Of a stretch of DNA of 44,006 nucleotides, positions 207-42,774 are shown one piece after another. Every line of letters begins with the position of its first letter. Positions within the stretch are counted from its first letter, which is position 1. A program made the position numbers and the translations under genes. Below the pieces are notes generated by a model, which was given only the letters and a program-made list of their open reading frames with translations, did no database searches and was not told the origin of the DNA. Source of the DNA: Verrucomicrobiota bacterium (lineage in GTDB: Bacteria > Verrucomicrobiota > Kiritimatiellia > JAHIZV01); contig JAHIZV010000107.1 in assembly GCA_018814445.1 (NCBI GenBank), positions 1-44,006 of the forward strand. The letters are read 5' to 3'.

Positions 207-1805
207 TCAAGGGTTCCAGGTCCATTTCTTCATTGCGCGGGCAAACCGTCTGATTGCAAAAGCCTCCGGGGGCACATCGCCGGGCTGAAAGCCGGGCCAG
301 TCACGCAGAAACTGCCCGCGGTACAGATACTGCTGAAGTCGTGTGACTTCAGGATTAGCGTTAATCAGGTAGTGAGTAGCCTGTCTTTGCCCGTCGACAT
401 TCAGCGTGACACGTCCTGAAGCCGGGATACGGCACTTCAGATTCCCCTGGCGTATCCTGTGCTCTTCAATAATGTCACCGAAGGCACTCTCGATCCGAAG
501 TTTACCTCCAACAAAGGGGTTGCCCGTTTTGAAACGGATGCTCACTTCCGAGATCAGCGGGGCAGGGAAGTGATGGCCTTTCGGATGAAGGTAAACGGGA
601 TTGGTCACGGCAAACTGTTCTACGTCCCTCGGCGCCATTCCGGGACCCTCGCCGGCTCCGAAAACGCGGACGACAAGGTAGCCGGCGGTCTTGCGCCCTG
701 GCACCTGGATCCGGAACTCGCCCCCCGGCGTATTCTGTTCCGACCAGATTACTTTCCCGCCTTTGCCTATGAGCTCGATCAAACCTAATGTCTCGTGTCC
801 TGCACGCGGCCACGCCTTGATGCGTACATCGTGCAGATGCATTCCTGACGTTTCCGCCACACTCCCCATGCGCTTTCCGTCGACTTTCAACTCGACATGA
901 GGTCCGCTTGAGGAAAAGAGACAGCCCGATTTCACCCGGTGAACCAGGCTGCGCGCACTCTTCAGTCCCCGGGGCGCGTACACATAGGTCAGGTACTCTC
1001 TGGTATCCCACAGGCGTTCGGAGGAAAGGCCGACATCAGACTCGGCCAGTCCGGTGACGCAGTACCCCAGGTCAAGCAGGTGAAACCACAGGGACAGATA
1101 TCCGGGGCGATATGCGTCGTAGCCCATGATGACCAGGCCGTCGATGAATCCGTCCGCAACCAGATGAGCAGGCATCTCGGACGCTATGTTGGTCACGAAA
1201 GCTTTCTTATCGGTGTACCACCAGCTTGTGGGATGCGCCCATATGCCGAGGGCCCCTTTCGCCCGCTGTGTTGCAACGATTTCCATGTACGGACGCCGTT
1301 CGTACGGCATCGGCTCCGGACCGGTATAGCCCTTCTTCTGCGCGCGCACCATCCATCGGTCAAACGGCTGATCGTAATCATGCCACTCGGGATAGTCGTG
1401 GTGCCAGCCGATCCACCACATATGACCGTAGCGGGCCTTGGGCGTTTCGTTGTCGAGATAGAAGAGAGTGCGCCCTTTGCTGAGCTCGTTGAGACGTTTG
1501 ATAACGCGCTGCGCTTCTTCAGGATACTTGACGGATTGCACGTCGAAGTCTTCGGAGTAGTAGATGTCACGTGCCCTGTCTTCAAAGCGCCCGTATGCAC
1601 GGGCCGTCTTTGGTGTGAATGGCGAGCCCACGCCGACGGCGGCTATGCGCGTCTTTGCGGCCCATTCGACAAGGTTTCCGTAGTTCCGCGGCGGCCGAAG
1701 CTCCCCGTGAAGCATATGTGTGTGAGTAAGCACGGAGCGCCATGACGTCCCGAGACCGTCAGGGGGCGGAATCAATCTATGTCCTGTATACCGAGAGCCT
1801 GGCAT
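207..1805 (-). CDS. CehA/McbA-like PHP-superfamily metallohydrolase
   Basis: The 532-residue product has no signal peptide. An HxH pair (H28, H30 in THTHMLHGE) opens the fold, followed by acidic residue E120, the pair H135-H136, H191 in GIWAHPTSWW, and a closing ESD motif (E255-D257). This spacing fits the PHP-type metal-binding domain of the CehA/McbA family, whose members hydrolyse esters or other small substrates with a di- or trinuclear metal centre. The C-terminal half (about 300-532) looks like beta-rich accessory domains. The start is supported by GAGGGAG about 6 bases before the ATG. A GH94 gene follows 61 bases downstream on the same strand, which suggests a carbohydrate context rather than carbaryl breakdown. 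The substrate cannot be told from sequence. Confidence 0.7.
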   Translation of the reverse strand: MPGSRYTGHRLIPPPDGLGTSWRSVLTHTHMLHGELRPPRNYGNLVEWAAKTRIAAVGVGSPFTPKTARAYGRFEDRARDIYYSEDFDVQSVKYPEEAQRVIKRLNELSKGRTLFYLDNETPKARYGHMWWIGWHHDYPEWHDYDQPFDRWMVRAQKKGYTGPEPMPYERRPYMEIVATQRAKGALGIWAHPTSWWYTDKKAFVTNIASEMPAHLVADGFIDGLVIMGYDAYRPGYLSLWFHLLDLGYCVTGLAESDVGLSSERLWDTREYLTYVYAPRGLKSARSLVHRVKSGCLFSSSGPHVELKVDGKRMGSVAETSGMHLHDVRIKAWPRAGHETLGLIELIGKGGKVIWSEQNTPGGEFRIQVPGRKTAGYLVVRVFGAGEGPGMAPRDVEQFAVTNPVYLHPKGHHFPAPLISEVSIRFKTGNPFVGGKLRIESAFGDIIEEHRIRQGNLKCRIPASGRVTLNVDGQRQATHYLINANPEVTRLQQYLYRGQFLRDWPGFQPGDVPPEAFAIRRFARAMKKWTWNP

Positions 1806-1894: not shown

Positions 1895-1948
1895 TATACA
1901 TAACATATATAGTGAGGATTGTTCAACACCTTTGTGCCGAATATCAGG

Positions 1949-2527
1949 ATGATGAAGGCCTGTCGAAAAAATGGAAGAAGGGAAGGGACCCGGCGGAACT
2001 GGTTTCCCTTCCTGCGTTTCATAGTCCTCTTTGCCGTGATATTCCTGCTGTTGCAGCGAGCCTACATAAACATGGGTGAGCGGACCCAGAACCTTGCCAC
2101 TCACCGCTTGAACGCGGTGCCGGCGGCAGCGGTGCTGAATGTTCTCATCCCGGGGAAGGGTGTGGTTGCATCCGACGCGAAAGTTATCGGCAGGGGATGT
2201 GAAGTAACGATCAGGAAGGGATGTGAGGGCTTCGAGGTGTTCTTCATTCTCGCGGCAGGTATGATCGCCTATCCGATGAGATGGAGCAGGAAAATCATGG
2301 GCCTTCTCGTCGGCGCGGTTTTCGTCTACGTCCTCAACATCATTCGCATCATCAGTCTCTTCTGCGTGGTCTGGCTGTGGCCCGGGTTCTTTGACGCGGC
2401 CCATATCATGGTCTGGCAGACGATTCTGATTCTGCTGTCTCTCCTGTTTTTCTCGTGGTGGATAGGGAAGAGTCCTCTTCATGGCTCCGCGGGCGGGCCC
2501 GCTTCACGCACACCGAACACGAAATAA
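1949..2527 (+). CDS. xrtH: Exosortase, XrtH type (IPTL-CTERM protein processing)
   Basis: This 192-residue polytopic membrane protein carries the three residues expected of an exosortase/archaeosortase active site: a Cys in the GCEGFE motif (C92), an Arg in NIIRI (R133) and a His in DAAHIM (H152), each next to a hydrophobic segment. Exosortases cleave secreted proteins near a C-terminal tag and are thought to attach them to surface glycolipid or polysaccharide. Its short length fits XrtH, the type paired with IPTLxxWG tags. A protein with exactly such a tag is encoded at 3329-4246, and a likely XrtH partner lies convergent at 2406-3161. A longer reading frame begins at a TTG (1919), but AGGA directly abuts it. 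I prefer the ATG at 1949 or 1952, preceded by CAGG. The 3' end overlaps the convergent gene by 122 bases. Confidence 0.75.
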   Translation: MMKACRKNGRREGTRRNWFPFLRFIVLFAVIFLLLQRAYINMGERTQNLATHRLNAVPAAAVLNVLIPGKGVVASDAKVIGRGCEVTIRKGCEGFEVFFILAAGMIAYPMRWSRKIMGLLVGAVFVYVLNIIRIISLFCVVWLWPGFFDAAHIMVWQTILILLSLLFFSWWIGKSPLHGSAGGPASRTPNTK

Positions 2528-3161
2528 GCGCCAGCAGGACGGTAAGAAACTGACGGCCCCCCGTGCTGAAGAAGGACTTGATCACTTTGAGTCGCGCGAA
2601 TTCACGGCCGATCATGGCGGTCGCGGCATCGTTCCCTGCAGAATGGGAAACATGCGGCGCTATCATGCGCCATACATCGTCGTACAGCTCGCGCCCGCAC
2701 CAGAAGAACATAACAGCACAGTCCAACGCGGCCGCGGCTGCAGCCAGGATCAGTCCAATGCCAAGTGCACAACCCCGCCGCCTCCACGACATAGGCCAGG
2801 CCGCTATCACGGTCAGGATAATCAGCGGGTAAACGTTGATAACTGAAAACAAGTGCTTGGCAGTGAAACCGTACTCGGGCCCCTGACTGCCGGTTGTCAT
2901 GGTGACCCGGTTCAGTACGAAGCTCATACCCTCCATCTTCAGGTGGATGTTGTCCTGCCCGATGCGATCCAATCGATATTCAGGATCCAGGGCGTGGACA
3001 ATCAAAGCAAGAGAACCCCTCAGTATATCTGAGAATAATGCGGGCCGGATAGAAAGAAGCATGAAAATCACGATGAAGACCGCCGCTCCCCTTGCGGTCA
3101 TCTTCCATCGTCGAAAAGGGACGTCTGATTTCATGTGCGGCCATTCTACTCGAACAAGCAT
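2406..3161 (-). CDS. Membrane protein, probable exosortase H-associated protein
   Basis: The 251-residue product has an N-terminal membrane anchor (about residues 22-42), a soluble stretch of about 60 residues, then two close hydrophobic segments (about 105-150) and one more near 205-225, ending in a charged Ser/Arg/Glu-rich tail. This layout, and its place beside the exosortase gene, match the membrane protein that accompanies XrtH in other bacteria. Sequence similarity was judged only by eye. It would act in the inner membrane with the exosortase, in an unknown role. The chosen ATG is preceded by TAAGGCAGGA; an internal ATG at 3134 is an alternative with a weaker site. Unusually, it is convergent to xrtH and overlaps its 3' end by 122 bases, so the charged tail is read from DNA that also encodes the exosortase C-terminus. 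Confidence 0.6.
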   Translation of the reverse strand: MLVRVEWPHMKSDVPFRRWKMTARGAAVFIVIFMLLSIRPALFSDILRGSLALIVHALDPEYRLDRIGQDNIHLKMEGMSFVLNRVTMTTGSQGPEYGFTAKHLFSVINVYPLIILTVIAAWPMSWRRRGCALGIGLILAAAAAALDCAVMFFWCGRELYDDVWRMIAPHVSHSAGNDAATAMIGREFARLKVIKSFFSTGGRQFLTVLLALISCSVCVKRARPRSHEEDSSLSTTRKTGETAESESSARP

Positions 3162-3328: not shown

Positions 3329-4246
3329 ATGGCCCTGTCGTCAAAAAAGCAAATTGGATTCGGGATGCTTCCGTTCCTGGCTGTGATGTCTATGCTATTG
3401 CTTTCCGCGATTTCGGCAGACGCGCTGACGTGGTCTGCAATGAACGGTGTGACGGCGGACACGCTGTTGCGCTACCGGTGTGACGAAGGATCCGGCACAG
3501 TCCTTGAAGACCTCTCTGCCGGTGCTCATGACGGGAGCCTGGCGAACGCCTCAGCCTGGTCCAGCGGCCATCCGGGATGGTTCACGTACAGTTACGGCTT
3601 CTACTTGTCGCCCAGCGGGAATCCAACGGACGGCATGAATGCCAACGTCACCATTACCGGTGTGGATATGGACAAGGGGCTGACCGTTTCCTTCTGGTAC
3701 AGGAATGGCGCCGGAGAAACCCAATCTGGAACTGCATTCGCCATTGAGGGGCCGGGGGCCACGCCCAGAATCCAGCTTTATACGGATGACTTCGGTCCAA
3801 GCTACTATGGCCGCATACGCCTGTTTGCGAGTCCCGACTGGTCCAGCCTCTACAGTATAGGCGGAGAGGGTGTCTGGAAACACATTGCTGTCGTCTACGA
3901 TCCTGTCGACGGAGATTCTTCGAACGGAGGAAACTTCTATCTCTATCTGGATACCGCTCTTCTGGAGACGGTTGCGTCGGCCAACGACTACTCCGGCGTC
4001 AGTCAATTCAATTTCAAGTTTGGCGATAACACGTTTGCCAACTCACCTTTGCAGGGCGCGGATCTGGATGAACTGCTGATTGAGAATGCGGTGATTACCG
4101 ACTTCTCCCAGCCCTACCATCCAGTGAATATTCCGACGCTCAGCGAGTGGGGGATGATCATTCTGACCGGCCTCGTGCTTCTCGTGGCGGCGCGGCGCCT
4201 GCTGGGCGAAGAGCCGGCCTACGCGGATGTCGGGATGTCCGCCTGA
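3329..4246 (+). CDS. Secreted LamG-domain protein with IPTL-CTERM sorting signal
   Basis: The 305-residue product has a signal peptide (hydrophobic core about residues 12-28, ending near SADA) and a concanavalin/LamG-like beta-sandwich (about 45-255) with the typical RYRCDEGSGT start, a TVSFWYRN strand and WKHIAVVYD. It ends in NIPTLSEWGMIILTGLVLL followed by AARR, which is an IPTL-CTERM tag: motif, transmembrane helix, basic cluster. A further 12-residue tail after the basic cluster is longer than usual for these tags. Such proteins are substrates of exosortase H, and an xrtH-like gene lies 0.8 kb upstream. The protein is therefore probably cleaved at the tag and placed on the cell surface or in matrix. 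It has the same architecture as the protein encoded at 10835-11728, which carries a PEP-CTERM tag instead. GCGGGA before the ATG is a weak ribosome site. Confidence 0.8.
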   Translation: MALSSKKQIGFGMLPFLAVMSMLLLSAISADALTWSAMNGVTADTLLRYRCDEGSGTVLEDLSAGAHDGSLANASAWSSGHPGWFTYSYGFYLSPSGNPTDGMNANVTITGVDMDKGLTVSFWYRNGAGETQSGTAFAIEGPGATPRIQLYTDDFGPSYYGRIRLFASPDWSSLYSIGGEGVWKHIAVVYDPVDGDSSNGGNFYLYLDTALLETVASANDYSGVSQFNFKFGDNTFANSPLQGADLDELLIENAVITDFSQPYHPVNIPTLSEWGMIILTGLVLLVAARRLLGEEPAYADVGMSA

Positions 4247-4290
4247 CCGGAATCCTATCCGGGGAAGAAAAAAGATTCCACTTTACTTGG

Positions 4291-4329
4291 AAGCATGCTT
4301 GGGATATATAGTATAGGATATACTAGTTA
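4291..4329. promoter_or_regulatory. Palindrome and TAGTATA-N3-TATACTA repeat upstream of C25-like gene
   Basis: AAGCATGCTT (4291-4300) is a perfect ten-base palindrome. It is followed by a perfect seven-base inverted repeat, TAGTATA (4309-4315), GGA, TATACTA (4319-4325), which runs into ATACTAGTTA (4320-4329). That last motif matches the sites at 1885 and 3194 at nine of ten positions. The block could end transcription of the LamG gene, regulate the next gene, or both. Confidence 0.4.
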
Positions 4330-4365
4330 CTAAGAATGCAGCGTCTCAACGGGAAGCATGAAATT

Positions 4366-7300
4366 ATGACACTCACTCGCTTTATCGTCGCATCTCTGGC
4401 CATCGCGTTTCTCTGCGGTCAGGCCGCACTCGCACGGGAAGTACTCATGGTCACGGCGTCGCCCTCAAGTCCATCCCCGTCTTTGCTGGTCCGTTTTGAA
4501 GGTGTGGACAACGACGGCGTCGCCTTCGATCTTCGTCGGCGTGAAGCAGGGACGATAGCAACGAATACGGCGCCCGGTGACGGCGGATGGGTTTTGATTG
4601 GGCCGAATGTGCCGTCGGACGGTCGATCAGGCAGTTTCCTGGATACCAATATCGTCGAGGGCATCGTGTATGAATACTGGGTCGACAAGGTTACTTCCTC
4701 GTCGAGCAAGGGCTATGGAGTAGGCGGAGTTTCCATTCCCGCCCCCGAACACCGGGGAACCATTCTTCTGGTCGTCGAAGAAGGTCTCACAAACAGCCTG
4801 AAAGCGGAACTCGGACAGCTCGAACGGGATCTCGTTGGTGACGGTTGGAAGGTGGCGACAAGCGCGGTCCCCCGCTACGATGAGAACCCGGTGGACGGTG
4901 CAGCCCGATTGGCTCAGCTCTACACAGTGCGCTCGGCCATTTCAAACTTGTATTTCTCCGCTCCCGGCGAGTTGAAGGCAGCTTACCTCATTGGACGCGT
5001 TCCGGTTCCCTACAGCCTGGCGGTTCAGGAACCCTCGTTTGCATCAAACATTCCGCCCTGGCCGCCCGACGGTCATGAGGGGCATGCGGGATGTTGGCCG
5101 GCCGATCTTTACTACGCCGATATCTATCAGGACTACACGAATCAGAACTACGTCTGGCAGGATGATACGCGGGCATGGACTAATACAACCATACCGCGCT
5201 GCTCTACGCTCCCCGGTGACGGGAAGTTTGATAACTACAGAACGCCCACAAGGCTTGATGTCCAGATCGGACGCGTAGATTTCTCGCAGATGCCCGGCTC
5301 GCCGCTCTCTGAAACGGAGCTGGTGCGGCAGTATCTGAACAAAGCGCACCGCTATCGCATGGGAAAAATCGATATGCAGCGCTCCGCGGCAATCAGCTCA
5401 CCCTATGCCTCCGTCCGGATGACTTTTCCCTCGTGGTTCGGGACGAACGCCTATGTGACGTCGACGAACCTCCAGGCCGACCTGCAGAATACGAACGGCT
5501 ACTATGGAATCTTCGCGAATGGTGCGGGCGGGTTCACATCCGTCGGAACTCACTACACGAGCTGGGATCTGATCAATATCAACCCGAAGATATTCATTCA
5601 TATGGCGCATGGAAGCTACTTCGGGGATTGGGACTCCGAGAATAACCTGTTGCGCGCCGCCCTCGCGGGGAGCGAAGGAGGTCTGGTCTCTTTGGACGCA
5701 ATGGATTTCTCCTATGGTACTCCGTTGAATCCGCACTATCACGTCGCGCCCGACTGGGCTCTGTGTCATATGGCGCTGGGTGAGACGGTGGGCTATGGAG
5801 TCCGCCATTCGATGAACGAGACATTTACCGCCTCATGGATATATACAACGCGCCCGAGTTCTCATTTCGCGCTTCTCGGTGATCCCGCCCTGCGGCTGTT
5901 TCCTGTTGAAACCGTCCCCGAAGTTGATGCCGTCGCCGCCGGAAACGATGTAGTTCTCACATGGCAGGCTTCGCCCGACACCGGAGTTGCCGGTTACCAT
6001 GTGTACTCATCCACGAACGGAGTCGGAGGACCTTATTCGAAGTTGACGGGAACGGCTGTCTCGGGCACGGCCTACACAAACAGCGGGGCCTTGCCGGGTA
6101 CGGTCTACTATCAGATTCGCGCGATGAAGGACGAACTGACGGGAGCCGGGAACTACGAGAATACCAGTCTGGGCGTGTTCGCCATGCAGTCTTCGGAGGC
6201 GACACCATATGTCAGTATTCAGCCGGTTGATTCATCGGCGTCTGAAGTAGGCCCAGACTCGGCCACGGTCCGGTTCATGAGAACCGGCGACACCTCCTCC
6301 GATTTGACTGTCTACTTCACCACCTCGGGATCGGCCGGCGTCGGTGACTACAGTCTCAACGCCACGAACTCCGTGGTGATTCCCGGCGGAGCCAGCGCCG
6401 TCGACCTCGTGTTGAGCCCCTACGCCGACGACGACTTCGAGGGAACGGAGACCGCTATGATCGAGTTGACGGACGATGTTTCCTACCAGGCCGGCGTCTA
6501 CGTTGTTCAAGCCATAGATATCGCGGACGAAGACTCCGTGCCGCCGGATCCCTCGGATCTCACTGCCGAGGAGATAAACACAAATGCCGTGCTGCGGTGG
6601 GCCGATAACTCGACTAACGAAACGCGGTTCATTATTGAGCGCCGCAATATCTCCGGGGGAGCTGTAACGATCGTTGATAATGAGGACGGGACGCTGGTTT
6701 CGAAGTATCCCGCCGAGGGGCAGTGGGAGACCCAGGCGTTCGAGAACTCGTACAACGGAAGCTGTTTCGGCATTAAGAAAAACAGCGGCGATTTCTACGT
6801 CGACTACGCCGTGGGTTCTGCGGTTACCGGTTGGCATGATCTGGCATGGTGGCATCCTTCCGGCAGTACGGGCGGGGATTTGACGGACAGTCAGTATCTT
6901 TACATTCACCATGCGGGCGGGTCCAATACGGTCCTGATCAACATGCAGGTGAATGGCGCAACCTGGAAGGAATTGGGAAGATACGAACTCGATACGAACA
7001 GCTACCTGCGCGTTGAGGGAACGTCCACTTCGTATCGGTGGACGATTGCCGACGCGTTGAGAATCGAGCGTCCGTTCCTGCCGGTGGGTGAGGTGGCCGC
7101 GGGAGTCACAAACTGGACCGACACAACAGTCGGTGCCGGCTACAGCTATGAGTACAGAGTAAGTGCCGCGATCGCCAATGCGACTTCATCGCCTTCTGAC
7201 TCGGCGACCGTCGTTATCACCGGGGGAGGAACAAATGCCGTGCCGACTGTCGATGCAGGAACGGCAGATGCTATTACGGCAGACCAGGATCTGTCCCTGA

Positions 7301-8439
7301 ACGGCAGCGCTGATGATCCGGACGACGGACCGCTGGCCCTCGTGGCAACATGGTTCAAATATAGCGGGCCGGGCAGTGTAACGTTTGGCGACGAGCATGC
7401 TCTTTCGACAACGGCCTCGTTTTCAACAAACGGGGCATATACGCTTGGACTCAGGGCGACAGACGGGCTTGCCACTGTGACCGACACCGTCGCGGTCACA
7501 GTCAATCCCGCTCCTGTTCCGGGCATGGGCGCATCCAACGGGACGGCTTTTGTCTGGGACGAATATACGATCGGTCTGTGGCACTTTGACGGGAACGCCG
7601 AAGACGCGACAACCAACCATCTTGATCTTGTGCTGATCAACGGTGCGACACTGGCCACCGGCGGGCAGGCGACGGCGTGGATGGCCAGTCCGTCCGGTTC
7701 AGCCCTGAGGGTCGACAACTATCCCCAGGCTGCCACAGGAACCGTTTCCGACGCACTGATCTTCGGTTCCGGCGCAGGACGGCCGATTACACTGGAGGCC
7801 CGGATGAATATCGAGGCATGGGGTTCAAACAGTGTCTCCTACACGATGTTCGGGATGGAGCAGAACTGGGACACGCATATCAACCTGGAGCAGGGCACAT
7901 GGAGTTATCCTGAAGGTTGGGTGTCCGGTAACAGGGACGAAGCGCTTGTCGGCGAGCAGGTCATCGGCACGTACTGGAGTACCGGCGTCTGGCACCACTT
8001 CATGTTCACATTTGACGGCACCAACGAGTTCACCGCGTACCTGGACGGAGTCAGGATCGGCAACTCGATTAATACCGAGCCGAATTGGGGCCGCTTCAAC
8101 AACCTCATGCTGATCTTCGGCAACTTCGTCGGCTATATGGATGAAATACGCTTGAGCAGCACAATCCGGACGTTCGAAACGGGATCCGGCGAAGAGCCGC
8201 CGCCGGAAATCCCCGAGATTGATTCTGGAACAACGTACGTCCTGAACGGTGAGCTGCAGATCGGTTTCACCTCTCAAACAGGGCATCAATATGGCGTGGA
8301 CCACAGGCTCGATCTACTGGTTGGAGACTGGACGGAGCTGACCAACGGCCTCACTGGAGACGGTGACCCGATCGTCATCGAAGTGCCCCCGCTGGATGCA
8401 GGAGGTTTCTACCGTATTCGTGCATGGCGCGGGCCGTAG
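4366..8439 (+). CDS. Giant secreted multidomain protein with C25 (gingipain-like) peptidase domain
   Basis: The 1357-residue protein has a clear signal peptide (MTLTRFIVASLAIAFL, cleavage near ALA). Domains by eye: peptidase C25-like (about 110-515) with DLYYADIY, RLDVQIGRVD, HMAHGS (H415) and the family's closing LGDPALRLFP; fibronectin-III-like (about 517-608); Calx-beta-like (612-725); a golvesin/xanthan-lyase-type module (about 767-905) starting IVDNEDGT and ending in ADALRIERP; PKD-like (954-1048); LamG-like (1062-1268); and the C-terminal beta module shared with other proteins in this window (1287-1357, ending GGFYRIRAW). The nucleophilic Cys of gingipains is not visible after the HGS motif, so proteolytic activity is uncertain. 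The longer start at 4336 sits only seven bases after a regulatory motif; I prefer 4366, with GGGAAG nine bases upstream. GH78 follows after 9 bases. Confidence 0.75.
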   Translation: MTLTRFIVASLAIAFLCGQAALAREVLMVTASPSSPSPSLLVRFEGVDNDGVAFDLRRREAGTIATNTAPGDGGWVLIGPNVPSDGRSGSFLDTNIVEGIVYEYWVDKVTSSSSKGYGVGGVSIPAPEHRGTILLVVEEGLTNSLKAELGQLERDLVGDGWKVATSAVPRYDENPVDGAARLAQLYTVRSAISNLYFSAPGELKAAYLIGRVPVPYSLAVQEPSFASNIPPWPPDGHEGHAGCWPADLYYADIYQDYTNQNYVWQDDTRAWTNTTIPRCSTLPGDGKFDNYRTPTRLDVQIGRVDFSQMPGSPLSETELVRQYLNKAHRYRMGKIDMQRSAAISSPYASVRMTFPSWFGTNAYVTSTNLQADLQNTNGYYGIFANGAGGFTSVGTHYTSWDLININPKIFIHMAHGSYFGDWDSENNLLRAALAGSEGGLVSLDAMDFSYGTPLNPHYHVAPDWALCHMALGETVGYGVRHSMNETFTASWIYTTRPSSHFALLGDPALRLFPVETVPEVDAVAAGNDVVLTWQASPDTGVAGYHVYSSTNGVGGPYSKLTGTAVSGTAYTNSGALPGTVYYQIRAMKDELTGAGNYENTSLGVFAMQSSEATPYVSIQPVDSSASEVGPDSATVRFMRTGDTSSDLTVYFTTSGSAGVGDYSLNATNSVVIPGGASAVDLVLSPYADDDFEGTETAMIELTDDVSYQAGVYVVQAIDIADEDSVPPDPSDLTAEEINTNAVLRWADNSTNETRFIIERRNISGGAVTIVDNEDGTLVSKYPAEGQWETQAFENSYNGSCFGIKKNSGDFYVDYAVGSAVTGWHDLAWWHPSGSTGGDLTDSQYLYIHHAGGSNTVLINMQVNGATWKELGRYELDTNSYLRVEGTSTSYRWTIADALRIERPFLPVGEVAAGVTNWTDTTVGAGYSYEYRVSAAIANATSSPSDSATVVITGGGTNAVPTVDAGTADAITADQDLSLNGSADDPDDGPLALVATWFKYSGPGSVTFGDEHALSTTASFSTNGAYTLGLRATDGLATVTDTVAVTVNPAPVPGMGASNGTAFVWDEYTIGLWHFDGNAEDATTNHLDLVLINGATLATGGQATAWMASPSGSALRVDNYPQAATGTVSDALIFGSGAGRPITLEARMNIEAWGSNSVSYTMFGMEQNWDTHINLEQGTWSYPEGWVSGNRDEALVGEQVIGTYWSTGVWHHFMFTFDGTNEFTAYLDGVRIGNSINTEPNWGRFNNLMLIFGNFVGYMDEIRLSSTIRTFETGSGEEPPPEIPEIDSGTTYVLNGELQIGFTSQTGHQYGVDHRLDLLVGDWTELTNGLTGDGDPIVIEVPPLDAGGFYRIRAWRGP

Positions 8440-8448
8440 GACAACAGG

Positions 8449-10845
8449 ATGGGAATGAAAGCGTCGTTTCGAGTCAGGAGAATAGTCGACTCGCTTACGG
8501 CCGGCGGGAGTCCGGAAGAGAAGGCGGGCGCGAAGAACGCTCGGATCGATGTCCTCCCCTCTGCATGGATTAACGTACCGGGTGTAACGGAGGAGACCTC
8601 CTCGGTTTCTGTCTACAGGCTCCGTTTCACAGTCGAATCCAGGTATACTTTCAGAATCTGCGTCACGGCGGACCAGCGCTACTGGCTGTATCTCGATGGG
8701 GAGCGTATTGGAATGGGCAGCGAAAGAGGTTGCCCCGGGAAATGGTTCTATGAGGTCTACGAAATCGAGTTAGGCAGGGGCGGACATTTTCTGGGCGCCC
8801 TGACCTGGTATCTTGCCGAGAAAGCTCCCTGGGGACAGATGACGGTTCGACCAGGATTCATGCTGGGGACTCCGGACAGCACCTATGCGGCACGGATCAA
8901 TACCGGACTGGCCTCCTGGCAAGCCAGGGTTATTCCCGGCGTGTCCTTTATGGATCAGTCTGAACGCGTCGGCCCACTCGTGGGCACGGGTGCGAGAGTC
9001 TGCTGCGAGGGCATCGCGTGGAACCACGTCTTCGATCCGTCCGCTGAATGGGCGGGCGCTGAAATGGATGCGTCCGGGCATGACCGCCTACTGCATCCGG
9101 CGGTGCTTCCCGCTATGAGGTACGAACGAATAGACAACGTGCGAGTGGCTTTGGTCGACAAGGCTCCTTCCGGCACCTGCATCAGCATGGATAACAATAT
9201 GGGGGAAGAAGCAAGTGCCTGGCAGGCCATGCTCAAGGAGAAGGGGGCCGATGTCGTAGTTCCTCCGCACAGCCACAGGCGCATTCTTATCGCTCTTGGA
9301 AACTACGTCTGCGCCTATTCCCGCCTGGTCACGAGCGGCGGGAGGGGGGCGGAAATCAGGGTGGGGTGGGCGGAAAGGTTGTCGGTCGAGCCGGACAGGT
9401 CAACGGGAGGCGATGACCGGCTGGGGTTCGATGGAATGTACTTCGTCGGCCTTTATGACACGTTCAAGCCGTCCGGCATGGAACAGGAGCTCCTCGAGCC
9501 GCTCTGGTGGCTGTCCGGATGCTGGGTGCAGATAGAAGTGTGGACGGCGACTGAACCGGTTGCGATACAGGACTTGAGTCTGTTCGAAACAGGTTATCCC
9601 CTTGACTGTGATTATGCTCTCAAGATGGATAACAGGAGTCTCGAGATCATCTCGGGCATTTGTTTGCGCACGCAGATTTGCTGCTCGCATGAAACCTACA
9701 TGGATCCTTACTACGAGCAGCTTCAGTATGTGGGGGACACCCGCCTGCAAGGGCTGATTACGTACGCGACGGAACGAGAAACCAATCTCATTGAGAAAGC
9801 GTTGGACATCTTTCAACACAGCGCCAGGGGGCCAACACCCCTTCCCACAAGCAACTTCCCTTCCCGAAACGAGCAGTACATTCCTCCTTATGCCTTGTGG
9901 TGGATCTGTATGCTGCATGACTACATGATGTGGCGAGGCGGAGCGGATTTCCTGCCCCGCCTGATGCCGATGGCCTGGCGGGTGGTGGAGTATTTTCTCA
10001 ATAGCCGGAGTGAGGAGGGGCTGGTCCGCTCCCCGGAGGGCTGGAACTTCGTGGATTGGGGCGTGTTCGATGGGGGAACACCGCCCGGAGGGCAGGCAGG
10101 CGAAGTCAGCGGGCTCATCAACTGGCAGCTCGTGCATGCGCTCGAGAGTCTTACAGATCTGTCTGAATGGCTTGGTGATGAAGATGGCGCCTGCCAGGCT
10201 CGCAGTATCGGCTCCGACCTTTGCGCCGTATGTGAATCGGTCCTCTGGAATCAAAAACGGCAAGCCTTTGCCGACGATCCGCAGCACAACTCATTTTCAG
10301 AGCATTCCCAGTGTCTTGCGATCCTTTCGCGGGGGCTGAGCGGCAGAAGACGCGAGGACGCCCATCACGCGTTGATGTCGGACCCTGATCTGCTGAGAAC
10401 CAGCATCTACTTCTCCCATTATCTTTGCATGGCCTTTCACCGGACGGGGGAGGGCCATCGCTTGTACGAGAAACTGATGGAGTGGAAGTACTACGTCGAC
10501 CGGGGATTCCACACGTTTCCGGAAACGGATGAGTATGGCCGTTCCGAGTGCCATGCCTGGAGCGCCCATCCTCTGTTTCACATGCTGCATTCAGTGCTGG
10601 GCATTCGACCCGGATCTCCCGGTTTCAGCTCGGTTATGGTCGAACCTCAGTCCGGTCCACTGGCCCGTGTCCGGGGCCTGATTCCTCATCCTCTGGGTCA
10701 TATTGAGGTCGTTCTGAAGGCCGGGAAGAAGAAGTGTATCGCAGAAATAGCCCTGCCCGAAGGGGTGCCCGGAGAGTTGCGCTGGCAGGGCCGTACATTC
10801 GGGTTGCGGGAAAACAGACAGACCATCGACCTTCTCACCGGATAA
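8449..10845 (+). CDS. GH78 alpha-L-rhamnosidase-like glycoside hydrolase
   Basis: The 798-residue product lacks a signal peptide and is probably cytosolic. Its N-terminal half (about 1-390) is beta-rich and the C-terminal half is an (alpha/alpha)6-barrel. CCSHETYMDPYYEQLQYVGD (E415 within it) and GRSECHAWSAHPLFHMLHSV are the signature regions of family 78 alpha-L-rhamnosidases, which use an inverting mechanism. E415 and one of E692 or E700 are candidate catalytic acids. A final beta domain follows (about 730-798). It starts nine bases after the C25-like gene and is probably co-transcribed. An ATG at 8455 is an equally good start, since AGG at 8446-8448 is better spaced from it. The 3' end overlaps the convergent PEP-CTERM gene by 11 bases. 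Rhamnose specificity is inferred from family only; GH78 relatives with other targets exist. Confidence 0.8.
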   Translation: MGMKASFRVRRIVDSLTAGGSPEEKAGAKNARIDVLPSAWINVPGVTEETSSVSVYRLRFTVESRYTFRICVTADQRYWLYLDGERIGMGSERGCPGKWFYEVYEIELGRGGHFLGALTWYLAEKAPWGQMTVRPGFMLGTPDSTYAARINTGLASWQARVIPGVSFMDQSERVGPLVGTGARVCCEGIAWNHVFDPSAEWAGAEMDASGHDRLLHPAVLPAMRYERIDNVRVALVDKAPSGTCISMDNNMGEEASAWQAMLKEKGADVVVPPHSHRRILIALGNYVCAYSRLVTSGGRGAEIRVGWAERLSVEPDRSTGGDDRLGFDGMYFVGLYDTFKPSGMEQELLEPLWWLSGCWVQIEVWTATEPVAIQDLSLFETGYPLDCDYALKMDNRSLEIISGICLRTQICCSHETYMDPYYEQLQYVGDTRLQGLITYATERETNLIEKALDIFQHSARGPTPLPTSNFPSRNEQYIPPYALWWICMLHDYMMWRGGADFLPRLMPMAWRVVEYFLNSRSEEGLVRSPEGWNFVDWGVFDGGTPPGGQAGEVSGLINWQLVHALESLTDLSEWLGDEDGACQARSIGSDLCAVCESVLWNQKRQAFADDPQHNSFSEHSQCLAILSRGLSGRRREDAHHALMSDPDLLRTSIYFSHYLCMAFHRTGEGHRLYEKLMEWKYYVDRGFHTFPETDEYGRSECHAWSAHPLFHMLHSVLGIRPGSPGFSSVMVEPQSGPLARVRGLIPHPLGHIEVVLKAGKKKCIAEIALPEGVPGELRWQGRTFGLRENRQTIDLLTG

Positions 10846-11728
10846 TTCGGACCCAACGTCCGATATTCTGCTGGCTCCTTCTTCGCGTTCGGAATAGCGA
10901 CGTGAACAAGCCGCCGAGCACCAGCAGTGACAGGGCGCCGGGCTCAGGAACACTGCCCGCGCCTCCGGAGAAGTCCTCGATGATTCCATTCTGAATCAGC
11001 AACTCGTCGAAGTCGGCAGATGATCCTTGCGTCCCGAAAAGATCGCTCATGAATCGGAAATCGAAACTCGTGACAGAGCTCAAATCAATCGTATCGTTCA
11101 TTGCGCTGCCAACCGCGACATTATCCATGTAGAACTGCCAGGTGCCGCCGTCAGAAGCATCGCCGTCCGGGTCATAGGTCAAGGCGAGATGGCGCCAGAT
11201 ATGGTCTGCTCCATACGAAACCAGACCGGACTCTAAATCCGGATCAGGATGAATCACGCGAGCATTCAATCGCCCGTTGTTGCCTGTGCCAAAGGTGTCT
11301 GTGGCAATAAAGAAATCAAGCGCGGTTCCCAGATATCTCAAGCGAGCCAATGTCCCGCCGGCTGGACTTCCCACCTCGTCTCGTATGCGGTACCAGAAGC
11401 TGATCGTCAGGCCCAGATTCATGTCCGCTCCTGAAATCGCCACGGTGTTCATGTAATCGCCGGGGCTACCGGCATTTGCCGAAAGGTAAGTTCCGGCTCC
11501 GGACGAAAGCCAGTGGCCGGAACTTTCGTATGCATGGAAATCGCTGGTGAGGGTTCCGTTGAAGCCGTGAGTGCCGCTATCCCCTGCTGCCGTGCCCGAT
11601 CCCTCATCGAAGTGGTACAGGGCAAGCGTATTCTCATCCGCAAAATTGGCACGATCCCAGACTACGGCAGACTGAACAGACGCCGCAAACGCAATCATCA
11701 GAATGACGATGAGTAGCCTCAAAACCAC
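10835..11728 (-). CDS. Secreted LamG-domain protein with PEP-CTERM sorting signal
   Basis: The 297-residue product has a signal peptide (about 1-20, ending near VQSA), a LamG-like domain (about 35-255) and a C-terminal tag: VPEPGALSLLVLGGLF followed by the basic RTRRR. That is a standard PEP-CTERM signal (motif, helix, basic cluster) for an exosortase. The LamG part follows the IPTL-CTERM protein at 3329-4246 nearly block for block: YHFDEGSGT versus YRCDEGSGT, ISGADMNLGLTISFWYR versus ITGVDMDKGLTVSFWYR, and FDELLIQNGIIEDFS versus LDELLIENAVITDFS. The two are paralogues with different tags. Start codon is GTG with AGGT touching it; a TTG two codons later is an alternative. No PEP-CTERM-specific exosortase is seen in the window. 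Confidence 0.8.
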   Translation of the reverse strand: MVLRLLIVILMIAFAASVQSAVVWDRANFADENTLALYHFDEGSGTAAGDSGTHGFNGTLTSDFHAYESSGHWLSSGAGTYLSANAGSPGDYMNTVAISGADMNLGLTISFWYRIRDEVGSPAGGTLARLRYLGTALDFFIATDTFGTGNNGRLNARVIHPDPDLESGLVSYGADHIWRHLALTYDPDGDASDGGTWQFYMDNVAVGSAMNDTIDLSSVTSFDFRFMSDLFGTQGSSADFDELLIQNGIIEDFSGGAGSVPEPGALSLLVLGGLFTSLFRTRRRSQQNIGRWVRIIR

Positions 11729-29593: not shown

Positions 29594-29693
29594 TGATTGC
29601 GCCGAATATCTCGTCAGAAAAATCCTTTCCCCGCCGCTTTTCCTGGGCTAACATGCTTCCTTCAAGGAAGTGCTTATCCCAAAGGGGGTTATG

Positions 29694-32600
29694 ATGAAGG
29701 TTTGTCGTCATCAGCGTGCGGTGCTATGCACTGGTGCGTGTGTTCTTGTTCTCTTCGCCATCTCAACAGCACATGCTGTCCGCTATGTATGGCAGGGGAG
29801 TGGCGATCCTCAGCCACCATATGGAACCTGGAATAAGGCGGCGCATACGATCCAGGCTGCACTCTTGTTCGCACCGGCAGGCGAAACGGTCATGGTGCGT
29901 GCAGATACCTACTTTATCTCCCAGCAGATCAATGTCAGTAATAACTATGTGATTGTCAGTGAGACCGGAGATCCGGCTACGACGGTCATTCACGGAAACG
30001 GCGGAGTTCGCTGTTTGAATTTCGAGGCCAGCGGCAGCACGTTCGCGGGTTTCACCGTGACAGCGGGGGAGACCGCTCTTGATGGTGGAGGCGTCTATGC
30101 GCCATACGGCGTGACTATCACTAACTGCATTGTTGTCAGCAACTCCGTCGCCGGAAGCGGCGGAGGAATCTGGAATAAACTGGGAGAGATCCGGGACTGC
30201 CGCGTAGCGCAGAATCGAGCCTCCGACGGCGCGGGAATCTACTCGGACGGCGCGGACGTGTATCAGTGCGTCATTGTCGATAACGCGGCGACCAATGGAG
30301 CGGGTGGTGTTCAGACCTCTACAGACATAACGATCATTGATCGTTGTGTGATATCGAGTAACACATCGATCTCAGGGGGGCCGGGCGGCGTCCGCGTGAA
30401 CCGCAAAACGACGATGTGGAATACGCTCGTGTCGCACAACTACGCGGGAGTACGGGGCGGCGGCGTCTATGCGTACGGCAGTTACAATGATAAGCCGAAG
30501 GTCGACAACTGCACGATCGTTGACAACAGCGCGGGACAGGAAGCCGGCGGCATCTATGCCAACAACGGGCCCTGGATTCGCAACACCATTGTCTACTACA
30601 ACGATGCGCCGGAAGGTCCGAACTGGGGCGGCAGTCAGGCCGTCTGGTTCAATCATGCATGCTCCACGCCGATTCCCGATGCCGACGGAAATGTACAGAA
30701 CGCACCCGAATTCATGGATCGGGATAAAGGCAACTATCGACTAAGCCCGGGATCTCCATGCCTTGATGCCGGTATCCCCATTGGAACATATCCGATTGAT
30801 CTGGACGAAGAATCGCGCACCGTCAACGGAACGATTGATCTCGGCTGTTACGAAGCAAGAGCAGGTATGCTCGCGGTTAATGTGCTGGCGGATCAGCGGT
30901 CAGGGGCACCCATTCATTCGGTCACTCTGAATGCGGAAGTGACCGGGACCAACACCACCGGGCTCTTCTTTCTATGGGATATCGATGCCGATGGAACCTG
31001 GGACCTTTCCGGATCTGGTCTCAGTTCTGTAGACACGGCGTACACGAATTCCGGGGCCTATTCCGTCGAGGTCCTTGTGAGCAACGCGATCGGGGAATCG
31101 GCCGGCATCCTGAAGGCTGACTACATTACGGTCGGCCCTACGACGCTTTATGTAGCCAACGGGGGCGGCAACGTCTCTCCGTACGATCATTGGGCGAAGG
31201 CGGCCACGACCATTCCTGCGGCGATCTCCGCCGCGGTGGAGGGAGCAACCATCGTGCTCAGTGACGAGGTTTTCAATGTGTCATCCAGCATTCGCATTGA
31301 TAAAGGTGTGACAATCCGAGGTGTGGGCGCGCCGGAGGATAGTGTGATCGACGGCGGGCAGGCGACGCGCTGTGTTGAGTTGGCTCATGCGGATGCGTTG
31401 CTTGATTCACTGACCGTGCGTGCGGGGCAGGCTATGGAGGGTGGCGGGGTATTTATCGCCGGGGGCGGCACGATCAGCAACTGCGTGATCCGGGACTGCT
31501 ACGCGAATAACTACGGCGGCGGCATCTATGCGTATGCCGGCGGTGTTATACAGAATTCACTGATCACATCGAACGGCTGCAGTTCCCAGGGAGCGGGCGC
31601 ATTTCTGAATCTTCTGCCGGAAGTCAGCGGATGCACCTTCTATACAAACGTGTCTGGCGGCGATGGTGGCGGTCTCTTTGTCGGCGGGCAGGGGTTAACG
31701 ATTGTGGACTGCAGACTGGTAACGAACCGGGCCGACTATGGTGGCGGTGTCTATATTGACGCGTCGGCCACCATACTCAGCAACTGCCATGTCTCTGGCA
31801 ACTACAGCGAGAGTGCCGGGGCAGGAATTCATCTGGGCGATGAATGGTGCCGCATAGAGAACTGCGTGGTGAAAGGCAATTACCTCGAGGACAATTATGG
31901 CGGAGGTATGTACATAGACGATGACAGTAACGTCATTCGCGGTTCGTCAATCATCAGCAATTACAGTGGAGCATATGGAGGCGGCGTCTACGTGGAAGCC
32001 GAACCGAATCTGTTTGAGGACTGCCTTTTTGACGGGAACGTCTCTGAGGACTATCCGGGCGGATTGTACAACTACTATGGCGCCGTGAACCGGTGCATAT
32101 TCAGGAACAACAGTTGCGGCGACTACGGCGGAGGGGTCTACATGTATGGCGGCGGCATGACGAACTGTCTTGTCGTAGGTAACACCGCCGATCAGGGCGG
32201 GGGCATCTATCTATACGATGGCGTCGTTCAGAACTGCACCGTTGTGCATAACATTTCGACGAATGAGGGCGGAGGCATCTACGACGGCAGCGGTGTGATC
32301 AGGAATTCTATCGTTGTGTTCAATAGGGGGCCCACGGACTACTCCAACTACTATGACTCAGCGACGTGGGAATTTTCATGCATGCAACCGATACTGGTGA
32401 ATACCGGGAACATTGACGCCGATCCGCAGTTCGCGGCGCGTTACCGCATTCGTCCGCCGTCGCCCTGCGTCGATGCCGGAGGCACAAACGATGCACCGAC
32501 GCGCGACTTCTACGGTGTCGTCCGGCCTCTCGACGGTGATGGCGACGGAACAAATAGATGCGACATGGGCTACACAGAGTATGAGGATCTACCTGCCGAT

Positions 32601-32969
32601 CAGGATGTTGATGGCGACGGCTTGACCGACCTCGACGAGATCTATGTCTATGACTTCAATCCCGATGATCCGGATATGGACGACGACGGGTTGAACGATG
32701 GAGATGAAGTTGCGGCGGGGACCAGTCCGATCGATCGGAATGATGTTTTCGAACTGACGGACTTCGACGAAGTGCCCACGATCGATGGCAGATCGGTTCT
32801 GGTCTGGTCCAGCGTCGCAGGCAAGCAGTACGCCATCTGGCGCGGGTTCGATCTGAACGTCGGATTCACGCCGATCGCGCAGCACATACAGGCCTTTCCG
32901 CCGATCAACTCCTGGACCGATACGGTGACGGGAGCGCATGCGTGGTTCTACGCGATCGAGGTGGAGTAG
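29694..32969 (+). CDS. Secreted right-handed beta-helix protein with PKD and TSP3 repeats
   Basis: The 1091-residue product has a signal peptide (to about STAHA, 25). Two parallel beta-helix regions (about 33-386 and 481-950) carry many GGGIY/GGGVY turns with NC-V-NN coils, as in Chlamydia Pmp-like and choice-of-anchor proteins. A PKD-like domain (about 391-479) separates them. Each helix region starts with a related cap (RYVWQGSGDPQPPYGTWNKA and LYVANGGGNVSPYDHWAKA), showing internal duplication. Then come Asp-rich TSP3-type repeats (DQDVDGDGLTDLDEI, DMDDDGLNDGDEV) and the shared C-terminal beta module ending WFYAIEVE. Probably surface-located, adhesion or glycan contact. ATG 29694 is chosen for its AAGGGGG site; a GTG at 29670 is unlikely. 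Confidence 0.75.
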   Translation: MKVCRHQRAVLCTGACVLVLFAISTAHAVRYVWQGSGDPQPPYGTWNKAAHTIQAALLFAPAGETVMVRADTYFISQQINVSNNYVIVSETGDPATTVIHGNGGVRCLNFEASGSTFAGFTVTAGETALDGGGVYAPYGVTITNCIVVSNSVAGSGGGIWNKLGEIRDCRVAQNRASDGAGIYSDGADVYQCVIVDNAATNGAGGVQTSTDITIIDRCVISSNTSISGGPGGVRVNRKTTMWNTLVSHNYAGVRGGGVYAYGSYNDKPKVDNCTIVDNSAGQEAGGIYANNGPWIRNTIVYYNDAPEGPNWGGSQAVWFNHACSTPIPDADGNVQNAPEFMDRDKGNYRLSPGSPCLDAGIPIGTYPIDLDEESRTVNGTIDLGCYEARAGMLAVNVLADQRSGAPIHSVTLNAEVTGTNTTGLFFLWDIDADGTWDLSGSGLSSVDTAYTNSGAYSVEVLVSNAIGESAGILKADYITVGPTTLYVANGGGNVSPYDHWAKAATTIPAAISAAVEGATIVLSDEVFNVSSSIRIDKGVTIRGVGAPEDSVIDGGQATRCVELAHADALLDSLTVRAGQAMEGGGVFIAGGGTISNCVIRDCYANNYGGGIYAYAGGVIQNSLITSNGCSSQGAGAFLNLLPEVSGCTFYTNVSGGDGGGLFVGGQGLTIVDCRLVTNRADYGGGVYIDASATILSNCHVSGNYSESAGAGIHLGDEWCRIENCVVKGNYLEDNYGGGMYIDDDSNVIRGSSIISNYSGAYGGGVYVEAEPNLFEDCLFDGNVSEDYPGGLYNYYGAVNRCIFRNNSCGDYGGGVYMYGGGMTNCLVVGNTADQGGGIYLYDGVVQNCTVVHNISTNEGGGIYDGSGVIRNSIVVFNRGPTDYSNYYDSATWEFSCMQPILVNTGNIDADPQFAARYRIRPPSPCVDAGGTNDAPTRDFYGVVRPLDGDGDGTNRCDMGYTEYEDLPADQDVDGDGLTDLDEIYVYDFNPDDPDMDDDGLNDGDEVAAGTSPIDRNDVFELTDFDEVPTIDGRSVLVWSSVAGKQYAIWRGFDLNVGFTPIAQHIQAFPPINSWTDTVTGAHAWFYAIEVE

Positions 32970-33960: not shown

Positions 33961-34002
33961 CATTCGCTTAATCTTCATTAAGACTTAAACGTTAAACGAA
34001 TG
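33961..34002. promoter_or_regulatory. Inverted repeat with TTAAACG half-sites upstream of GH13 gene
   Basis: CATTCGCTTAA (33961-33971) and TTAAACGAATG (33992-34002) are inverted at 10 of 11 positions. A small TCTT-catt-AAGA hairpin lies between, and TTAAACGTT (33985-33993) matches the site before the GH57 gene. A further TTAAGCGTT lies at 33791-33799. The right arm covers an ATG at 34000, which argues for the downstream start at 34030. A LacI-family-type operator is the likeliest reading, by inference. Confidence 0.45.
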
Positions 34003-34029
34003 AGGATATTGCGTGTAGGTTCTGGCGTC

Positions 34030-37000
34030 ATGCGGAGCCTGATTGGGAGAATATGGAGCACGTCGACCGCAGTGGTGCTTATTGCGAGCGCCTGCTACTC
34101 GTTCACACCGCTTCCCTCACGCACAAATGATTCGCCCGGTTTTGTCTACACTCCCTCACCGTCAGACTGGCGCGCCGTTCCGATCTACCAGGTGATGACG
34201 GACCGGTTTGCCGATGGTGATCCGTTCAACAACGATGATAATCCGGACGCCGATGTGAATCCGTTCGGAGCGATTTCGATTCACGGAGGTGACTTCGAGG
34301 GCGTCGAGCAGAAACTCGACTACCTGCAGATGCTCGGCGCGCGAGCTGTTTGGGTTTCTCCCGTCGTGAAGAATGTGAACGGGATCTTTCATGGGTACGC
34401 CGCGCAGGATCTGAATCAGATCGATCCGCACTGGGGCACGCTTGACGACTTGCGCAATCTGGCAGATGCGTTGCACGCGAGAGGCATGTACCTGATTATC
34501 GATGTGGTCCAGAACCACATGGGCGACCTGATCGATTCAACGGACTCCGGGTATCCGAACTTCAATATCAACGGCTACAACCTCCGTTGGCGAAACAGCT
34601 CGAAACAGCATGCTCCGCCGTTTGATGACCTCGCACGCTTCCACAATTACGGGAGTATCCAGAACTGGAGCGATCCGACGCAGACGATCCTCGGAGACTT
34701 CTCGGGTCTCGACGGGATCAAGACGGAAGATGCCGGGGTTCGCGCGGATCTCACAACGATCTTCAAGGCGTTGATTGCCGCCACAGACTGCGACGGCTTT
34801 CGTGTGGATACCGCGCGACACATCGAAATGGGATTCTGGGAGGAGTTTCTTCCATCGATCTACAGCTACGGCGAGTCCATCGGCAAATCGAACTTCATCG
34901 TTTTTGCCGAGGCGTGGCTTGGATCCGACATTGAAGTTGGCACGTTCACGGCCACCAACCGTTTCAACTCAGCGCTCAACTTCCCGATGAGGAATACGAT
35001 GGAGGATGTCTTCATCTGGAATCAGCCGACATCGTGGCTGGGCGACAGGTATGACGGGTTGATCGACTACGATCCGGTTGCGAGAGATCAGCTTGTGAAC
35101 TTCATCGACAACCACGACATGGCGCGGTATCTCACCGGCTCCAAGTTGAACAACGACTGGAACCGTCTGAAGCTTGCGCTGACGTTCCTCTATTCATATC
35201 CTGCGGTTCCCTGTCTGTACTACGGAACAGAGCAGGGCTTCAACGGTGACAACGACCCGAACGACCGTGAGGACATGTTTGACGGGGAATTCGAATTCGG
35301 CCCCTCGCTCGGAGACAACTTCGATCAGACTCACGAGCTGTTCCGTCACGTCCGCTGGCTGAATCTTCTGCGCGAAGCCTATCCGTCGCTCGTTGCCGGC
35401 GATTTCGACGATCGTTGGAAAGACTATGCCGGCTCCGGTCTGTATGTGTACTCAAGGATTCAAGGGCCCGAGGAGGTTATTGTTGCCTTGAATACATCGT
35501 CCGGAAGCAAAACCGCCTATTACCAGGGCAGTGGCCCCGGCACCACCTATGCACAGGGAACCGTTCTTGTGAATCTTCTCAACACGAACGAAAGCGTTAT
35601 CGTCGGCAACGGAGTGGGGCCGACCGAAATCACATTCACCATGCCCGGCCGCAGTATGAAGGTGTTTGTTCCTCAGAGCGACATCCGCGATCTTCGACCG
35701 AGTGTCATAGCCTGTATGCCGGAGCACGACACGAACAACGTTGCGTTGTTGTCCGACATCATTCTGGATTTCGACACCCCGATGAACACGGGCAGCGTGC
35801 AGTCTGCGTTTTCTCTGATTCCGGCCGCGGCAGGTTCCTTCACATGGGCGAACAATCAAACCAGGCTTACATTCACTCCGGACCAGGCGCTGGATTCCAA
35901 CGCAGTTTACCGCGTGACCCTGAACGCGGCGTGCGCGGCGACAAACGGGCTGGAACTGGGCGCGGGTTTTTCCAGCCGCTTCGGCACAGGCGCCACACTG
36001 GAGAATCCGTTCCCCTTTGGCGACTACGTGATGGACGGGGTGCTGGATGCAGGTGTGCCGGCGCTCGTCACCAACAACGGCATGATTCTCTACGCGCAGT
36101 ATGACCAAAGCAACGAAGTGCTGTACGTCGCCACGTTCGATGCGGGTGAAGGCAACGATCACTTCATTCTGATCGATGACAATCTCAGCGGCACGCCGGC
36201 GGAGATTCCCTTGTGGAATAAGACGGGAACCGTTGCTTCAGACGGCCCGCTGGTTGCTGACGAAAACGACAACGACTTTTCCGCATGGTTCAGCGTATCC
36301 GCGAGCGCCGCCGCGAAGACCGGCCCCAACGGCGGCGTCATAGAAGGTGTGATAAGCCTGGCCGAGCAGTACGATCCGGTGCCGCAGTTTATCTACATTG
36401 CGGTGGCGCTCTACCCGTCGCAGGACGGCGGGACACTGCTGGCCGACTACCAGGTGCCGTGGTCGCAGAACTTCGATCAGAACATCGACTCCAACGAGTA
36501 CCTGCGTCTGAACCTTCTGACGGGCGAGGTTATCGTAACGCCGAAGCCCAGCACTGGAGGAGAAGTGGAACTGAAACACTACCTGCTCGATGGTCAGCTT
36601 TCTCCTGTCGAAGCGGCCGCGCTGCGGGCGCAGAACGGGATGAAGCTCTATGCCGATTTCAACGGGGAACTCCTCTACGTTGCCACGCAGGATGCGGGGG
36701 AGGGGAACGACCACTTTATCTTCGTCACGGACGACCCCGTGCCCGACCACAGCGCGCCATGGGGAAAGTCCGGCAGGGTCAAAGGCCGAGAACATTTCCT
36801 GGCCGACGAGAACGACAGCGACTTCGAGGGCTGGTTCATCAACAACGCGTGGGACGGATCGCTCTCCGCGGCCACTCCGTTCAACAACGGCGGGTATCTC
36901 GAGGGCACGCTCGATCTCGTCGATATCTTCGGCATGATTCCGTCGAACCTCTTTATCGCCGTCACGCCATACAACACCTGGGACGGCGGCGCGTTACTGG

Positions 37001-37742: not shown

Positions 37743-37769
37743 TTACCGTTCTTTTTGGGAGATATTGGC

Positions 37770-41974: not shown

Positions 41975-42088
41975 ATGTCAGTTGTGCTCGTTTCCCTTGT
42001 TGGGTTCTACGCCCACAGGGAATGTATGGAGTTCCGTGTCCCGTCTGCGTCTTCTGATTCCAACTCACCGCAAAGAGATCCGCCATGA
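41975..42088 (+). CDS. Possible 37-codon upstream ORF coupled to the TSP3 gene
   Basis: A short frame starting MSVVLVSLVGFYAH is preceded by GGGGAGG at seven bases and ends in a TGA that overlaps the ATG of the next gene (ATGA). Spacing and overlap suggest translational coupling or a leader peptide, but the sequence has no recognisable family and could be chance. The rest of 41811-42084 holds nothing else that I can support. Confidence 0.25.
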   Translation: MSVVLVSLVGFYAHRECMEFRVPSASSDSNSPQRDPP

Positions 42089-42774
42089 ACTCATACCGTT
42101 CCCTTCTGTTTGTAACTCTGTCTCTTCTTCTCTTCGCTCGCACCTCACACTGTGCACCCGACCAAACATCGTTCGTCATAGACGGCGCGGGCGGTTCGAG
42201 TTCCGGCGGAACGCTGGAGTTGCTTGATGCTTGCGGACAGGCGGGAGGCATCGAGCTTTCTTCATCAGGAAGCAAGTTCCTTCAAGGCGGTTTTCTCAAC
42301 ACGTTCAGTTTGCAGACCTCTTTGGATACCGACGGTGATGGGCTTGATGACGAGGCGGACCCAGATAACGACGATGATGGACTGGAAGACATCAGAGAGA
42401 TTTCGGGGTCCGCCTTTTCTCCCGTGACGCGAACAGGTCATAACGTGGCTGACAGTGACGGTGACGGAATGACGGACGGTCAGGAGTCGGTGGCGGGAAC
42501 GAATCCGCAGGACGAAGACTCGCTGCTGGGCGTGACCGTCACCTATGACAACGGCAACAATGAAGCCGACATCGAGTGGGATGGACGGGGTGGAAAGACG
42601 TACAAGGTCTACTACATGGACTCGCCGCACGAGGGTTTTGCTTCAGCCACGCATCTTGACGATGTGTCCGCACTTGGCGGGAGCGGGGACTGGATGGTCT
42701 CGCCGACGAACTACACGGACTTGAGTCTAACCACAGTCACACAGCGCTACTACTTCATAAAAGTCGAACCGTAA
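42085..42774 (+). CDS. Small secreted TSP3-repeat protein with shared C-terminal module
   Basis: The 229-residue product has a signal peptide (MNSYRSLLFVTLSLLLFARTSHC). After a Gly/Ser-rich part (about 30-75) come Asp-rich, calcium-binding TSP3-type repeats (LDTDGDGLDDEADPDNDDDGL and DSDGDGMTDGQESVAGTNP). The last 75 residues are the C-terminal beta module seen in four other proteins here: IEWDGRGGKTYKVYYMDSPHEGF to YYFIKVEP. With little else present, it is nearly a minimal carrier of that module. AAAGAG upstream is the ribosome site. Probably cell-surface or secreted; function unknown. Confidence 0.7.
   Translation: MNSYRSLLFVTLSLLLFARTSHCAPDQTSFVIDGAGGSSSGGTLELLDACGQAGGIELSSSGSKFLQGGFLNTFSLQTSLDTDGDGLDDEADPDNDDDGLEDIREISGSAFSPVTRTGHNVADSDGDGMTDGQESVAGTNPQDEDSLLGVTVTYDNGNNEADIEWDGRGGKTYKVYYMDSPHEGFASATHLDDVSALGGSGDWMVSPTNYTDLSLTTVTQRYYFIKVEP

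Follow-up and report, generated by a model that had tools for sequence, protein, structure and literature searches.

Two described systems come closest to the locus considered here. One is the PEP-CTERM/EpsH system (TIGR02595, TIGR02602), whose classic gene arrangement has been set out previously (PMC1569441), and the other is the Exosortase H/IPTL-CTERM system (TIGR04177, TIGR04174, PF18203), in which a small exosortase with a conserved Cys-Arg-His set adjoins an IPTL-tagged protein. Homologues bearing GlyGly-CTERM, LPXTG or PEP-CTERM tails have been reported, as have dedicated enzyme-target pairs whose genes lie side by side (PMC3237569); different tails on homologues, and dedicated adjacent pairs, are already known for other tags. 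The S-layer protein of Methylomirabilis lanthanidiphila is an IPTL-CTERM protein, with a signal peptide and the tag at its C-terminus (PMC8671808). Exosortase/tag pairings are almost wholly computational inferences, and in the open literature that we searched IPTL-CTERM is hardly mentioned and XrtH was not found together with exosortase.

The DNA analysed, hereafter the window, is a stretch of 44,006 nucleotides on contig C16 of a genome (G000) of 4.06 Mb, which is assembled in 250 contigs and is 95% complete. The features that concern us are:

207..1805, minus strand: CehA/McbA-type metallohydrolase-like protein, 532 aa (NF038032 72.8 bits, below the cut-off of 80)
1919..2527, plus strand: small exosortase, XrtH/XrtM-like, 202 aa, with a conserved Cys-Arg-His set (C102, R143, H162)
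2406..3161, minus strand: uncharacterised membrane protein (the partner), 251 aa, convergent with the exosortase gene and overlapping its 3' end
3329..4246, plus strand: LamG protein A, 305 aa, with a signal peptide, a LamG body and an IPTL-CTERM tag (at 4130-4201 in the genome search)
10835..11728, minus strand: LamG protein B, 297 aa, GTG start, with a signal peptide, a LamG body and a PEP-CTERM tag (at 10874-10951 in the genome search)

The initial annotation had described A and B as two LamG proteins that follow each other throughout and end in IPTL-CTERM and PEP-CTERM tags respectively, and this is borne out: both open reading frames are present, and each tag scores above its NCBIfam cut-off. 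By BLASTP the two proteins are 36% identical over 289 aa (E = 2e-41), from the signal peptide through to the tag. The tag of A is recognised by TIGR04174 IPTL_CTERM (29.1 bits, cut-off 20.5) and by Pfam PF18203 (24.2 bits, cut-off 20.8), and is also matched by NF033207 ‘midcut-by-XrtH’, which is an independent NCBIfam tie of XrtH to IPTL-type motifs, while its body matches the Pfam family Laminin_G_3 (34.7 bits, cut-off 27.6). The tag of B is a TIGR02595 PEP_CTERM member at 18.4 bits (cut-off 16). Glycans and proteins are common ligands of LamG domains; a PDB sequence search with the LamG subfamily returned no relative.

The window enzyme belongs to the exosortase/archaeosortase superfamily (TIGR04178 47.7 bits, cut-off 23), with C102, R143 and H162 invariant in the alignment, and lies outside both XrtH (TIGR04177 75.1 bits, cut-off 86) and XrtM (TIGR04300 77.9 bits, cut-off 125). 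The locus is therefore like the Exosortase H/IPTL-CTERM system in the adjacency of a small exosortase to an IPTL-tagged protein, in the tag motif and in the Cys-Arg-His set, but unlike it in that the enzyme falls below the XrtH cut-off and scores slightly higher with XrtM, and in that the partner membrane protein has no model. It had also been claimed that the exosortase is flanked by both substrates within 9 kb. The distances stand (0.8 kb to A, 8.3 kb to B), but both genes lie on one side of the exosortase and hence do not flank it.

The claim that the window holds a single exosortase gene is correct, and no second one was found on its contig, but a genome-wide search found three in G000: a large EpsH-type enzyme on contig C203 and small enzymes on C59 and C16. 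The C203 enzyme is EpsH-type by TIGR02602 (161.7 bits, cut-off 105.55) and by its neighbours, as it is preceded by an exopolysaccharide sugar transferase (TIGR03025 333 bits, cut-off 295.55; also PF02397) and followed directly by EpsI (PF11984 43.9 bits, cut-off 26.1). The PEP_CTERM model has 55 matches in the genome, of which 51 exceed the cut-off, B included. With some 51 PEP-CTERM proteins and an exosortase of eight transmembrane helices adjacent to EpsI and the sugar transferase, C203 shows the classic PEP-CTERM/EpsH arrangement (PMC1569441), unlike which its enzyme fits no named Xrt subtype (XrtA, TIGR03109, 161.1 bits, cut-off 208) and its marker genes are on a contig other than that of the window. 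IPTL_CTERM exceeds the TIGR cut-off at only two places in the genome, each beside a small exosortase. The second of these is on C59, where an exosortase 35% identical to the window enzyme lies next to a protein that ends in PTLTEWG and to a convergently encoded homologue of the membrane protein at 2406-3161. Exosortase and IPTL tag are not paired strictly one-to-one, as C161 encodes a third IPTL-type protein (PF18203 23.4 bits, cut-off 20.8) that lacks an exosortase beside it. We considered whether the second exosortase could be a binning artefact; this is disfavoured, since C203, C59 and C161 agree with the window in GC content (0.55-0.57) and tetranucleotide composition (r = 0.94) and are thus unlikely to be binning errors.

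We propose, with a probability of roughly 85%, that the cell has two distinct exosortase systems, one acting on A and the other on B. Protein A would be the IPTL-tagged surface protein of a dedicated cassette, together with the small XrtH/XrtM-like exosortase and its conserved, unnamed membrane partner, whereas B would be among the roughly 50 PEP-CTERM proteins that the EpsH-type enzyme of the exopolysaccharide locus processes. Each protein would be exported via its signal peptide and anchored in the inner membrane through the C-terminal helix and the basic tail, whereupon its own exosortase would cut at the tag and the protein would be passed on to the cell surface. We infer the tag specificity of each exosortase from co-occurrence and gene neighbourhood. 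A surface location is plausible given the IPTL-CTERM S-layer protein of M. lanthanidiphila (PMC8671808), which A resembles in its signal peptide and C-terminal IPTL-CTERM, although S-layer formation belongs to that protein and the LamG protein is known here from its sequence. Taken this way the pairing of the two tags is largely ordinary, and the surprise is an effect of a 44-kb view; what is still of interest is the repeated exchange of tails and the constancy of the partner protein.

The best-surviving alternative, though an unlikely one, is that A and B are direct duplicates whose tags were switched at this locus. The two belong to one subfamily, their bodies align throughout, and their genes, on opposite strands of the same contig, are 6.6 kb apart; moreover, tail exchange of close paralogues does occur elsewhere, at C161 and at contig C461 of G068, a genome of another family. 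Strong members of the LamG subfamily occur only in G000 and G068 among 388 genomes of the phylum, and a profile search of genome contigs with the LamG alignment found little beyond G068 (JAUIHQ010000001.1, MAG ‘Co_bin.216’), so that the tree could be built from only seven LamG domains, with tags removed, five from G000 and two from G068. This tree separates A and the IPTL-tagged and untagged LamGs of G068 from B and three repeats on contig C78 of G000, with support of 100/100, and a clade of A with B is rejected (p-AU 7e-7). The identities agree with this: B is closer to the C78 repeats (50-55%), and A to the G068 LamGs (42-44%), than A is to B (36-38%). Thus the paralogy that had been claimed holds at the level of the subfamily, A and B not being each other's closest relatives, and the two tags mark an old split rather than a swap after a local duplication. 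Since the IPTL-tagged LamG of G068 sits in the same type of cassette, the tag of A is probably older than the split from that lineage; a clade of A with this protein alone was neither recovered nor rejected with the seven-row tree (p = 0.197). The second exosortase on C203 and the separation of A from B in the tree are the two findings that the initial annotation had named in advance as counting against its readings of the pair.

A single enzyme accepting both tags, the window exosortase alone, is very unlikely, even though the window encodes no other exosortase and the gene for B is 8.3 kb from it. The EpsH-type enzyme present in the same genome explains the tag of B and makes a promiscuous enzyme, as had been suggested, unnecessary. 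We surveyed 146 genomes of the class, counting PEP_CTERM at E <= 0.001, and found the tag in 114 and EpsH in 128. EpsH is present in 109/114 genomes with PEP tags compared with 19/32 without (Fisher p = 1.1e-6, a value that ignores shared ancestry), with one family, f2, accounting by itself for 10 of the 13 double negatives. Small XrtH-like exosortases occur in only 6/146 genomes, which leaves 108 PEP-tagged genomes without one. All six also carry PEP tags, as a single enzyme with both specificities would have it, but all six likewise carry EpsH, so none isolates the small enzyme. Furthermore, the tagged proteins directly adjoining small exosortases of this branch have IPTL-type or IPMM/VPML-type tags and in no case PEP. 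An XrtH match in G075 was set aside as a cross-hit, being at the same position as the EpsH gene of that genome, and weak IPTL matches in C106, G032, G086 and G091 look spurious when the sequences are read. Counting against the reading with two systems, such tags also occur in two fragmented assemblies in which a small exosortase was not detected: G140 (C320, L107) with a clear IPTL tag, and G106 (C410, L071) with an IPTL-like VPTMSNW tag.

That just one of the two tags works, the match at the C-terminus of the other protein being due to chance or decay, is very unlikely, because although the PEP tag of B scores modestly, is followed by an unusually long tail and narrowly misses Pfam PF07589 (18.7 bits, cut-off 20.7), B has the PEP motif, a hydrophobic stretch and RTRRR in order, and in the genome-wide PEP_CTERM search it reaches 23.0 bits, a value in the range of the remaining PEP proteins.

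The reading with two exosortase systems gains its detail from the conservation of the cassette. In G068 it comprises a metallohydrolase-like gene, a LamG protein with an IPTLSEWG tag, a small XrtH-like exosortase and the partner membrane protein, and at a distance of 7 kb there is a further LamG protein, whose tail is unrelated. The metallohydrolase-like gene of the window has its apparent homologue adjoining this cassette (L058:11346-12992, from translations read by eye). In two more genomes, G049 and G037, the tagged protein immediately upstream of the small exosortase has a related IPMM/VPML-type tail. The partner is a constant element, with a homologue next to each of the seven small exosortases in this branch that have a readable neighbourhood (the window, C59, G068 C303, G068 C334, G011, G037 and G049); no homologue was detected next to the small exosortase of G125, which is more divergent. 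Across the 388 phylum genomes it occurs in G000, G068, G011, G037 and G049, with three further copies in G068, two of them at contig edges, and a single partial match, without an exosortase next to it, in G127. The protein matches no NCBIfam or Pfam family. Its AlphaFold model, of moderate confidence (pLDDT 80.6), is helical apart from a small beta segment (residues 62-104), and neither a PDB fold match (best E 0.38) nor a PDB sequence relative was found. On these grounds the partner is a candidate component of the small-exosortase system, and this exosortase-linked membrane-protein family is one of two leads that the sequences offer, the other being the recurrent exchange of tails. The 3' ends of the exosortase and partner genes of the window overlap by some 120 bases (2406-2527), and those of the C59 pair by about 20 bases.

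Tag-switching after duplication, which the initial annotation had put forward for A and B, fails for that pair in the tree but has merit as a general idea. Two neighbouring genes on G068 C461, 65% identical over 197 aa, differ in their tails, one having IPTLSEWG and the other IIPEPS. On C161, the IPTV-tagged gene adjoins two PEP-tagged paralogues, being 45% identical to one of them when these are 42-44% identical to each other, and on C59 the homologue next to the IPTL protein (33% over 105 aa) has a C-terminus of yet another, third type. In a control comparison, adjacent PEP-CTERM paralogues retain PEP-type tails (C232, C44, C169, C161), the sole different tail being the IPTV of C161. In G000 and G068 the neighbourhood can be read for five IPTL-type proteins, and each of these has a relative with a different tail either next to it or no more than about 7 kb away. 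Judged from sequence comparison, the exchange of tails between neighbouring paralogues is real and has occurred repeatedly, with IPTL-type and PEP tails exchanged in two tandem sets. Unlike the homologues described earlier (PMC3237569), the exchange here is among tandem neighbours inside one genome. A and B would stem from an old split within one LamG subfamily, and tails would be exchangeable modules. More tentatively, and with the odds somewhat against it, small exosortase cassettes might copy a nearby surface-protein gene and readdress it by tail exchange from the common PEP/EpsH route to a private IPTL route, with the unnamed membrane protein as an obligate partner of this branch. The 65% identical pair of G068 C461 is a natural internal control for whether the tag alone sets the enzyme and destination.

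Several other proteins and C-termini came to light. The C78 repeats lie in a frame of 4467 aa (L048, L110) that has three LamG repeats close to that of B, lacks a sorting tag, is preceded by another very long repetitive frame and is a probable giant surface protein. A C-terminal module of about 110 aa is common to four window frames (29670-32969, 34000-37476, 37755-41810 and 42085-42774), to L002:2655-3413 and to the L058 LamG protein ending at 7044. It combines a TSP3-like segment with a beta-rich domain whose end reads YYxIxV or the like. Apart from the short TSP3 repeat it is covered by neither Pfam nor NCBIfam models, and as a third common C-terminus it may be another surface-sorting signal. 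Finally, directly upstream of the small exosortase of G125 (174 aa, TIGR04178 46.7 bits) is a gene for a ubiquitin-fold protein (C202, L064:933-1376, L109; Pfam ubiquitin, E = 7.8e-16). This protein appears to have a signal peptide, its C-terminal tail is hydrophobic plus basic, and it is possibly a surface-sorted ubiquitin-like protein.
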